From a virus, in the IMG/VR virus record IMGVR_UViG_3300027763_000093, positions 1 through 45,082 of that record: DNA of 45,082 nt. One strand, 5' to 3'. This document shows positions 35,420 to 38,557 of this stretch, piece after piece; position 1 is the first letter of the stretch, and each line of letters opens with the position of its first letter. The notes under the pieces were generated by a model, which searched no databases, had not been told where the DNA came from, and saw nothing but the letters and a program-made list of their open reading frames with translations. Both the position numbers and the translations under genes were made by a program.

Positions 35420-36214
35420 ATGGATAGGCCATCTCGCGCTGAAAGAAGATCACAAAAAGTACAGAGAGTACACGTCAGGCAAGATCAAGAAAAGAAAAAC
35501 CTTTTAGAGTTAACTACAGTAACACCAAAAACTCACAATCAGGAAAACATTTTCAACGAGTTCTATAACGGAAAGAACTTACTTATCCATGGATTACCGG
35601 GAACAGGAAAATCGTTCCTATCAATGTATCTAGCGCTAAACGAACTTGCGCAATACGACGAACTAAAAAGAATAGTTATCATCAGATCAGTCGTACCTTC
35701 GCGCGACATGGGTTTCCTTCCCGGATCTATTAAGGAAAAATCAGCAGTATACGAAGCGCCTTATAAAGCCATTTGCCAAGAACTCTATGGCCGCGGCGAT
35801 GCGTATGAGTTGATGAAAGCTAAAGGAATCATTGAGTTCACCACCTCTTCATTCCTTCGTGGCATCACCATCGATAATTCTATAGTTATAGTAGATGAGT
35901 GCCAGAATATGACTTACCACGAACTGTGTACTATTGTTACGCGCATGGGCAAACACTCAAAGATAGTGTTTTGCGGAGACTACAATCAGAGTGACCTAAA
36001 GTATGATGACGATAAATCCGGAATCATACACTTCATGAAAATCATTGCTTCGATGAAGCGATATTTTGCAACCATTGAAATGAACGTAGATGACATTGTT
36101 AGATCAGGACTCGTTAAAGAGTTCATCATTAGAAAAAACTCGTACGAGAATCCAAGGGTTGTCGTCGTTCCATCCTCTTACCAAAACTCTGGAGATCAGA
36201 AAGTCTTTCACTAA
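35420..36214 (+). CDS. phoH: PhoH-like ATPase
   Basis: A 264-residue P-loop ATPase. Walker A is GLPGTGKS, Walker B is IVIVDECQNM, and the motifs IIRSVVPSRDMGFLPGSIKEK and FCGDYNQ are those of PhoH. PhoH proteins are thought to act on RNA in phosphate-stress or RNA metabolism; the phage role is uncertain. The start at 35420 has AGAAGGA upstream; the frame also opens from a TTG at 35402. The next gene overlaps its 3' end, by 125 bases if its ATG is real. Confidence 0.92.
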   Translation: MDRPSRAERRSQKVQRVHVRQDQEKKNLLELTTVTPKTHNQENIFNEFYNGKNLLIHGLPGTGKSFLSMYLALNELAQYDELKRIVIIRSVVPSRDMGFLPGSIKEKSAVYEAPYKAICQELYGRGDAYELMKAKGIIEFTTSSFLRGITIDNSIVIVDECQNMTYHELCTIVTRMGKHSKIVFCGDYNQSDLKYDDDKSGIIHFMKIIASMKRYFATIEMNVDDIVRSGLVKEFIIRKNSYENPRVVVVPSSYQNSGDQKVFH

Positions 36215-36872
36215 GATCGAAACATCGATTAAAAGTGTTGAACTAGAACAAATAAACACCGACACCGGCAGGTTCTATAAGACTCCTGCCGGTCTTTTAT
36301 ACCCATCAGTCACCACTGTGACTGGAGTTCTTGGTCGAGCAAGCATACAAGCTTGGCGAAAGAAAGTCGGTGAGGATGAAGCAAATGCTATCTCACACAC
36401 TGCTGCTAATCGCGGTACAAGAATCCACCAACTCGCAGAAGACTATATCAATGGCGATGACATCGAAGTGGAAAAGTACTCGATGCAAGATGCTGAGATG
36501 TTTGAAAGTCTAAAGCAGGTTTTAGACGAAAAAGTTGATAACGTTAGAATGCAAGAAGTTCGGATGTATTCAGACTATATCAGAATGGCTGGTACCGTTG
36601 ACATGGTATCCGACTTCGAAGGAAAAAGATGTATCGTTGACTTCAAGACTTCTAGGAAGCTCAAGCGACCATCGGACATTCTTAACTATTATTGTCAAGC
36701 TACTGCTTATGCGATTATGTTTGAAGAGATGACTGGGATTGCTGTTCCTAGATTTGCTATCGTGATTGCAGTAGATGGCGAAGGGGTTCAGATCTTTCGT
36801 GGAAAAAGAGACGACTACGTAGAATCTCTTTTAACGTTAAGAAAACAGTACGACGATGAAAATAGTTGTTGA
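36090..36872 (+). CDS. RecB-like PD-(D/E)xK exonuclease, start uncertain
   Basis: The functional part spans TDTGRFYKTP and PSVTTVTGVL, through GTVDMVSDFEGKRCIVDFKTS (catalytic Asp and D-x-K), to the YCQATAYA helix, as in phage exonucleases of the Cas4/RecB type. Related proteins begin about 10-12 residues before the TGRFY motif. The only ATG is at 36090 deep inside phoH, and the intervening residues look like a shadow frame. No ATG, GTG or TTG lies in the right place, but ATC (36216) and ATT (36228) do. A +1 shift from phoH is another possibility. It probably processes DNA ends for recombination. Confidence 0.85.
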   Translation: MTLLDQDSLKSSSLEKTRTRIQGLSSFHPLTKTLEIRKSFTKIETSIKSVELEQINTDTGRFYKTPAGLLYPSVTTVTGVLGRASIQAWRKKVGEDEANAISHTAANRGTRIHQLAEDYINGDDIEVEKYSMQDAEMFESLKQVLDEKVDNVRMQEVRMYSDYIRMAGTVDMVSDFEGKRCIVDFKTSRKLKRPSDILNYYCQATAYAIMFEEMTGIAVPRFAIVIAVDGEGVQIFRGKRDDYVESLLTLRKQYDDENSC

Positions 36873-36899
36873 CATTTATAGATGCTTATGTTATAAATA
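36869..36899 (+). promoter_or_regulatory. Promoter for the tmRNA (sigma70 type, overlapping late box)
   Basis: TTGACA at 36869-36874, a 17-base spacer, then TATAAA at 36892-36897; the same bases extend to a T4-type late box TATAAATA (36892-36899). Transcription would begin at about 36904-36906, just where the tmRNA acceptor piece starts. The -35 box lies within the last codons and stop of the exonuclease gene. Confidence 0.82.
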
Positions 36900-36903
36900 A
36901 CTA

Positions 36904-37225
36904 GTGATGTTGATATTCACTGAACACGTTCTGGACTCGGGTGCGAATCCCGACACCTCCACCACGGATACACTAGTCAGCACTGTGAGAAGCGCAGATC
37001 TCGACGAGACTAGAACATGGTTTGAATCCAAACTAGTGTATCTTTGCTGGGGGTGAGTTAGGATCGACAGGCGAACTAGGCAGGATGGAGTCACCGGGAT
37101 CTAAGCTCCGTTAACGCGAAGAAAACTACAGTTGCAAACGATAACTTTGCTCCTCAGGCTTACGCACTAGCTGCATAAGCACTTGGGTATGGCTCCACCT
37201 AGAAACAGAACGGGCCGCTTCACTT
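36904..37225 (+). ncRNA. ssrA: Circularly permuted two-piece tmRNA
   Basis: The acceptor piece comes first: T stem TCGGG-TGCGAAT-CCCGA at 36937-36953, acceptor strand CACCTCC at 36954-36960 and ACCA at 36961-36964. A spacer follows, flanked by an 11-bp inverted repeat (GATACACTAGT at 36967-36977 with 37032-37042). The coding piece starts with GGGGGTG at 37049-37055, which pairs with the acceptor strand and gives a G3-U70 alanine identity pair, then GATCGACAGG. A PK1 stem (GGAG/CTCC at 37087-37109) precedes the tag. The tag is at 37134-37178: GCA resume codon, then ANDNFAPQAYALAA and stop. CGTTCTG at 36927-36933 pairs with CAGAACG at 37206-37212, joining the pieces. Ends are approximate. Confidence 0.94.
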
Positions 37226-37234
37226 TGGAATCAC

Positions 37235-38557
37235 ATGAAAACATTTTGTCCACTACCATGGAATGGCGTATCAGTAAGAAACAATGGTGACCTTCGTGTC
37301 TGCTGTAACGCAAATTCATATAGTAAGAACCGAGGAATTCTTCGAAAGAAGGATGGCAGTGCCTACAACGTAGGTCGTGACGATATAAGCGAGTCACGTA
37401 ATTCTGAAGTTCTAAAAGACATTAGAGCATCGATGATCAATGGCGAATGGCATGAAGAGTGCACTCGTTGTAAGCTTGAAGAAGAAACCGGTATCAAATC
37501 ACGCCGCGAATACGAGAATCAACAATGGCCTAACGTAGAAAAAGAAGTCTTAATTAAGACTGAAGACGATGGATCTATTGACGTCAATGATGTAAAATTA
37601 GATTACTTCGATTTGCGTTATGGAAATTTCTGTAATCTTAAGTGCAGAATGTGTGGACCAACTGACTCGCATATGTGGTACGGCGATTTTGTAGAAACTA
37701 GTGGTCATACCAGATTTACAGACTCACATGGTAAAGTTCAGTTAACAAAGAACGCTAAAGGTAAATGGTCTACGAGTGACTATGATTGGTTTCAGGGTTC
37801 TAACTTCTATTGGGATCAATTTGAAAAGCATACAAAGAACGCGACTAAGTTCTACATTGTAGGTGGTGAACCATTAATCATCGAAGAACACATTCAATCT
37901 CTTGAGCGTCTCATTGCTTCAGGTAGAGCTAACGAAATAGAGATTGAGTATAACACTAACTTGACCAACGTTACTGAGAAGATGATTGAGATTTGGAAGA
38001 ACTTTAAAGAGATCCGGATCGGCGCTTCAATCGATGGTTATGGTGCAGTATTCGACTATCAGAGGTTTCCGGCTAATTGGGAACAGGTGTATAAGAACCT
38101 AAAAAAACTTGATTCTACACCAGGACTAAACTTATCAGCTTGGCTCGCATATACTATAACGCCGTTTAACATCCTTCATCTTCCTGAATTCATGAAGTGG
38201 AAGTTAACAGAGTCTGGGCTAAATAAGTTCAACACGATAAAGCAATATAGGAAGATTATTAGTCACCATATGTGCCATAAACCTAGTCACTATAATGTTA
38301 AGTGTTTACCCGACGAGTTTAAAAAACTAGTTGACAAGAAGTTTGATGAGTATAAAGACTGGGCGAAACATAAACAACCTGAGGTTATATCTTTACAATT
38401 CATTGCGTTGCTAGATGGAGTGTCTAGTTTTATGAATGCTGAGAGTTACCATGACGAACACTTTCCTAAATTCGTCGACCTAACAAAGAAACTTGATGTT
38501 TTGCGTGGACAAAATATCTTAGACGTAGTACCAGAGTTTGAGGAGTATTTCAAGTGA
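37235..38557 (+). CDS. Radical SAM protein with N-terminal auxiliary domain (paralogue 3)
   Basis: A 440-residue protein. The auxiliary part has FCPLPW (Cys5), RVCC (Cys23-24) and CTRC (Cys76, Cys79); the core is CNLKCRMC (Cys133, Cys137, Cys140) with IVGGEPLIIEE. It is closest in this window to the protein at 3987. It lies directly behind the tmRNA coding piece, with only GGA as ribosome site, and overlaps the start of the gp33-like gene (GTGA). It therefore interrupts the usual T4-like exonuclease/33/59/32 order, suggesting insertion. The substrate is unknown. Confidence 0.9.
   Translation: MKTFCPLPWNGVSVRNNGDLRVCCNANSYSKNRGILRKKDGSAYNVGRDDISESRNSEVLKDIRASMINGEWHEECTRCKLEEETGIKSRREYENQQWPNVEKEVLIKTEDDGSIDVNDVKLDYFDLRYGNFCNLKCRMCGPTDSHMWYGDFVETSGHTRFTDSHGKVQLTKNAKGKWSTSDYDWFQGSNFYWDQFEKHTKNATKFYIVGGEPLIIEEHIQSLERLIASGRANEIEIEYNTNLTNVTEKMIEIWKNFKEIRIGASIDGYGAVFDYQRFPANWEQVYKNLKKLDSTPGLNLSAWLAYTITPFNILHLPEFMKWKLTESGLNKFNTIKQYRKIISHHMCHKPSHYNVKCLPDEFKKLVDKKFDEYKDWAKHKQPEVISLQFIALLDGVSSFMNAESYHDEHFPKFVDLTKKLDVLRGQNILDVVPEFEEYFK

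Follow-up and report, generated by a model that had tools for sequence, protein, structure and literature searches.

Permuted tmRNA has been published in the aquatic phages Melnitz (OM43) and Mosig (SAR11), and two-piece molecules make up 53 of the 133 distinct phage tmRNA structures described, 50 of these 53 coming from marine or aquatic phages (PMC9004378). The tmRNA database holds 79 phage sequences (PMC11915505), tmRNA occurs in huge phages, some of which also have SmpB (PMC7162821), and lytic Bradyrhizobium phages have tmRNA as well (PMC12656738). Phage-borne two-piece tmRNA is already known, and the copy analysed here, in a metagenomic virus record of 45,082 nucleotides (IMGVR_UViG_3300027763_000093; the whole stretch is hereafter the window), is a further case. 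What we add is its near-universality in one phage group, its promoter and its apparent exchange between phages, points which were not found in the literature searched, although this is no proof of newness.

The window gene resembles those of Melnitz and Mosig in being a two-piece tmRNA of alphaproteobacterial type, carried by aquatic myophages of T4-like make-up. However, Melnitz and Mosig carry a glutamine riboswitch together with the tmRNA, whereas the Rfam scan of the window gives the tmRNA and one tRNA only. Their tmRNA lies upstream of a transcription coactivator and that of the window follows an exonuclease and precedes a radical SAM gene, and tmRNA was present in 17 of 47 contigs of their group compared to 53 of 56 loci in the group of the window.

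A complete two-piece tmRNA gene

A preliminary description of this DNA had proposed a permuted two-piece tmRNA, acceptor piece first, where no ORF is found, and had suggested a search with the alphaproteobacterial covariance model. Indeed, ARAGORN called a permuted tmRNA (36871-37269) with the tag ANDNFAPQAYALAA, and in Rfam searches of the entire window both RF04321 (tmRNA_permuted; 108.9 bits, E 1.8e-20) and RF01849 (alpha_tmRNA; 100.9 bits, E 1.6e-26) matched over their full length and above their curated cut-offs of 47 and 50 bits, respectively. Together, ARAGORN and the two models place a complete circularly permuted gene at about 36865-37222, and no ORF of at least 80 aa lies between 36873 and 37234. 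The acceptor piece (T arm, CACCTCC, ACCA) is followed by an 84-nt spacer and then by the coding piece (Table 1). The alphaproteobacterial type is borne out by the order of the pieces, the score above the Rfam cut-off, the G3-U70 pair, P2 and a tag frame with a stop.

Table 1. Features of the tmRNA locus in window coordinates
Feature	Position	Strand	Basis or remark
Upstream neighbour, PD-(D/E)XK exonuclease (PF12705, phrog_298)	36090..36872	+	
Promoter, TTGACA-N17-TATAAATA	36869..36899	+	Single window match, kept in relatives
Acceptor piece	36906..36964	+	Rfam, ARAGORN, covariation; 5' end estimated from promoter
Acceptor-piece elements	P2 3' strand 36927-36933; T arm 36937-36953; CACCTCC 36954-36960	+	T loop TGCGAAT
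Encoded ACCA	36961-36964	+	Read directly
Intervening spacer, 84 nt	36965..37048	+	12-bp closing stem prolongs acceptor stem
Coding piece	37049..37222	+	Rfam, ARAGORN, covariation; 3' end is an estimate
Coding-piece elements, in order	GGGGGTG 37049-37055; D-like loop; P2 5' strand 37068-37073; PK1 region; tag; 3' pseudoknot	+	
Tag frame ANDNFAPQAYALAA and TAA stop	37134..37178	+	ARAGORN
3' H-type pseudoknot	37183..37217	+	S1 TTGGGT:ACCTAG, S2 TGGCTC:GGGCCG, linker AAACAGAAC
Downstream neighbour, radical SAM/SPASM protein	37235..38557	+	Domain match; ATG at 37235

With alphaproteobacterial chromosomal tmRNA (RF01849; Caulobacter) the gene shares its order, the acceptor and T arms, P2, a tag of the form ANDN...AA and the AACAGAA linker in the 3' pseudoknot. 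It differs in its T loop TGCGAAT, which was absent in the 46 bacterial copies compared, and in the distance from tag to AACAGAA (25 nt, against mostly 30-90 in bacteria). It also scores lower with RF01849 than almost all of the bacterial copies that pass the cut-off in 142 alphaproteobacterial genomes (mostly 160-310 bits), which leaves room for a change in some of its activity.

By its core genes (gp32, gp59, RNase H, primase and tail tube) the phage belongs to the T4 superfamily; gp59 and gp32 lie beyond the radical SAM gene. The phage is distant from isolates, its tail tube being 32% identical to the best among the matches listed. Stenotrophomonas phage DLP6 was the top-ranked tail-tube match, and a search for close DNA matches among isolate phages gave no more than a patch of 76% in Sinorhizobium phage Phosso.

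Near-constant presence in a T4-like group

We collected 80 loci through the neighbouring phoH gene, 56 of which reach at least 2.6 kb past phoH and form the denominator used here. The tmRNA was found at the same genomic place in 53 of these 56, a count of loci that are partly redundant and not all independent: 37 were found by script, 14 have a tmRNA whose tag is longer and which had escaped the stricter script, and two (L258 and L262) were found by Rfam. In L251 and L285 the copy is damaged or incomplete, and L299 has no tmRNA. Among five isolates near the phage, a permuted tmRNA is present in DLP6, RHph_I1_18 and BUCT-ZZ01, and absent from Cr30 and phiM12. In this T4-like group the tmRNA is nearly a core gene, with a single genomic position. 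Two-piece tmRNA is here characteristic of a phage group and no mere curiosity: almost all sampled members of this widespread group keep it, with a variable tag and no SmpB of their own found, which speaks for a benefit of ribosome rescue to the phage during infection of aquatic bacteria.

This distribution also bears on the quality of the assembly. As a virus record from metagenomic data, the window might be a chimera in which host DNA was joined to a phage contig; however, the same junctions occur in a second contig (L003/L096) and the 53 loci come from many metagenomes, and we regard the probability of such an artefact as practically negligible.

Conserved helices and the position of P2

The neighbouring exonuclease was used as bait to collect 53 related viral loci, after which nine phages were compared piece by piece; a wider set of 39 distinct tmRNA loci was obtained via phoH. 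The acceptor stem was paired in 63 of 63 cells in the nine phages and 273 of 273 in the 39 loci, and the T stem in 45 of 45 and 195 of 195, respectively, although percentages from the wider set lean high since its script demanded at least 4/5 T-stem and 6/7 acceptor pairs. This filter did not, however, produce the variety of pair types, and several occur at variable positions of both stems in the 39 loci. The alanine G3-U70 pair is present in the window and invariant in all 39.

The spacer is closed by a stem (36966-36977 with 37032-37043) that the preliminary description had recognised as an 11-bp inverted repeat; the repeat is there, but it measures 12 bp with one G-U. All 90 cells of this stem were paired in the nine phages, with changes on both sides at 6 of 10 pairs, and a stem of at least 8 bp was found in 34 of the 39 distinct loci compared to 2.7% in shuffles. 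The fold of 36947-37066 had a z of -3.5. Both stems of the 3' pseudoknot, with changed letters, were found in all eight relatives of the nine-phage comparison. A cloverleaf-like fold of the spacer, with a T-arm-like GGTTTGAATCC, was considered as a tRNA; Rfam is blank there and the motif is by eye absent from the spacers of relatives, and the shape was taken as chance.

Two pairings between the halves had been put forward earlier. That of GGGGGTG with CACCTCC, including G3-U70, holds, whereas that of CGTTCTG with CAGAACG (37206-37212) is not a conserved helix: only 78% of its cells were paired in the nine phages, its seventh pair failed in 8/8 relatives and further pairs were lost in some. Instead, CGTTCTG (36927-36933) forms the standard P2 with CAGGCG (37068-37073) beside the D-like loop, in a register that runs from C37068 to G37073 against G36933 to C36927 and leaves U36930 bulged. 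In the nine phages 52 of 54 P2 cells (96%) were paired, with one pair changed on both sides, while slid versions reached at most 52%. CAGAA is part of AACAGAA, the conserved linker of the 3' pseudoknot, and the match to CAGAACG is a coincidence with this motif. By sequence comparison, the parts of the tmRNA are conserved and covary across the T4-like phage group.

A conserved promoter

The sequence TTGACA-N17-TATAAATA upstream of the acceptor piece has a single match in the window, where shuffles predict 0.01. The -35/-10 spacing is identical in aligned relatives, and TTGACN-N15..19-TATANN lies upstream of the tmRNA in 29 of the 39 distinct loci. The gene had been credited with a sigma70-type promoter of its own. 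An own and conserved promoter is supported and its -35 is sigma70-like, but a strict sigma70 scan misses it because the -10 is TATAAA. The -35/-10 pair speaks for an early phase of transcription by the host RNA polymerase; a late phase could come in addition from TATAAATA, which coincides with the consensus of T4 late promoters. The tmRNA and the radical SAM/SPASM gene are probably co-transcribed, judging from the 13-nt gap between them.

These features can be set against the idea that the gene is a functionless fragment of host DNA, for instance an attachment-site remnant of imprecise excision. Although tmRNA genes often serve as integration sites (PMC11915505) and remnants have been found in prophages (PMC9004378), the gene is complete with its promoter, its helices change on both sides and it keeps the same place in distant phages; moreover, no tyrosine integrase was found in the window or in 14 related records, among them one of 157 kb. 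A host remnant is therefore very unlikely.

Probable replacement by recombination

The tmRNA and its flanks give discordant relationships. Compared with its close relatives L005-L007, the window has flanking genes of 76-88% amino acid identity and flanking DNA of 74-75% identity, whereas the tmRNA is 66-68% identical in the acceptor piece and 61-66% in the coding piece, the latter figure counting gaps and having a shuffled control of 50%. A gap-ignoring identity measure was dropped, since it masks this discordance. Between L006 and L007, the tmRNA is 96-98% identical and the flanks 88-92%. Conversely, the window tmRNA is 93% (acceptor piece) and 83% (coding piece) identical to that of L075, a phage whose gp59 and gp32 proteins are only 35% and 56% identical to those of the window. 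A tree joined the window and L075 with support of 100/99; it rests on about 200 columns, has weak deep forks and uses a viral sample partly picked by T-arm pattern, so that only this pair is relied on. The two sides of the comparison have the promoter and the outer spacer stem in common.

High identity to a distant phage, set beside divergence from close ones, speaks for recombination at this locus; in the simplest reading, the window tmRNA was probably replaced in place by one from a distant phage lineage. Exchange may also involve single pieces: L249 has an acceptor piece and spacer that are nearly those of L244 and the start of the coding piece of L246, with a G-U left in the acceptor stem, and looks like a piece-level recombinant. 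Rather doubtfully, one could go further and propose a core tmRNA that keeps a fixed place while its acceptor and coding pieces are exchanged between distant phages, with a different tag for each phage, the exchange being driven by selection on the tag or on fit to the SmpB and proteases of the host. The apparent swapping supplies natural variants for testing the purpose of the phage tag.

The tag and a proposed role in ribosome rescue

The tag ANDNFAPQAYALAA has a degron-like end before its TAA stop. Across the group (phoH-locus set), tags end in [L/F/I/V]AA and vary in the middle, as expected if the degron is used. Fifteen relatives (L240, L244-L248, L254, L255, L263, L277, L279, L281, L286-L288) share the tag ASNDNVPYSAMK[I/V]AA, and many of these tags are preceded in frame by an additional stretch starting with GCA, which makes their resume codon uncertain. 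An ANDN-style alphaproteobacterial tag had been noted before; the host-like ANDN...ALAA build stands and the tag is unusual, yet it bears no sign of special targeting. A host search with the pattern ANDNFAPxAxALAA matched no genome, and relaxing the pattern brought up 11 contigs, most of them from Hyphomicrobiales MAGs and with ANDNFAPVALAA, a likeness too distant to name these bacteria as the host. When the coding piece was compared by BLAST with 385 alphaproteobacterial genomes, nothing beyond short weak matches came up.

We consider it likely that this is a working alphaproteobacterial-type two-piece tmRNA gene, processed by the host and rescuing ribosomes, and probably replaced from a distant lineage. 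From established tmRNA biology, the phage promoter would yield one precursor RNA, in which host RNase P would cut before G37049, using as substrate the acceptor stem prolonged by the spacer stem, and host 3' processing would cut after the encoded CCA. The two pieces, held together by the acceptor stem and P2, would be charged with alanine by the host AlaRS at the G3-U70 acceptor, and, in the infected cell, host SmpB would bring the tmRNA to ribosomes that have stalled on a broken or non-stop mRNA. The unfinished chain would then receive ANDNFAPQAYALAA and pass to host ClpXP-like proteases, and the ribosome would be recycled and return to translating phage mRNA. Neither the window nor 23 other phage or virus records, many of them fragments, yielded an SmpB gene, so function would need host SmpB. 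Rescue of stalled ribosomes is the likeliest role. The AT-rich phage mRNA first suggested as a motive is a weak one given a window GC of 38-41%.

Alternatively, the phage tmRNA could be charged and enter ribosomes but, instead of providing extra rescue, mainly compete with host tmRNA or couple phage timing to how many ribosomes have stalled. Inhibition of E. coli tmRNA is known for a mycobacteriophage tmRNA, the tag-less one of DS6A (PMC11915505), and a role in sensing and lysis has been stated for huge phages (PMC7162821). However, every intact copy read keeps the tag frame, the resume region and the degron-like end, for which a pure decoy would have no use, and we hold a decoy or modulator to be unlikely.

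Further observations

Other tmRNA copies were met during the searches. Stenotrophomonas phage DLP6 carries an unannotated permuted tmRNA (KU682439.2:102838-103059; our L126 and L161) with 136.8 bits to RF04321 and the tag ANDDSFAPMAIAA; the DLP6 paper makes no mention of tmRNA. Like the window, DLP6 is a T4-superfamily phage with a permuted tmRNA, but its copy fits the beta model (beta_tmRNA, 103.7 bits) and adjoins a tRNA cluster. The host group of DLP6 is generally held to have a one-piece tmRNA, so that gene form and host would be mismatched. A permuted tmRNA with the tag ANDNFAPSGYALAA lies on a contig filed in a Muricauda MAG (L113, NHBR02000136.1); its ORFs, which we take to encode clamp-loader-, clamp- and RegA-like proteins, make a mis-binned fragment of a T4-like phage probable. 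One bacterial genome has a second, weaker tmRNA (L214, G139:C5:288509-288849) with 72.8 bits against 235.7 for its main copy, and the T loop TGCAAGT and short 3' region of this second gene are phage-copy-like, which suggests that it is possibly a prophage copy.

Within the window, radical SAM/SPASM-like ORFs are present in a number unusual for one phage fragment (611-1270, 1245-1592, 2885-4006, 3987-5384, 9720-10829 and 37235-38557, the domain test covering the last only). The sole other RNA gene found by ARAGORN and Rfam is a tRNA-Arg (TCT) at 1634-1710, and Melnitz also has a tRNA-Arg(TCT) (PMC9004378).
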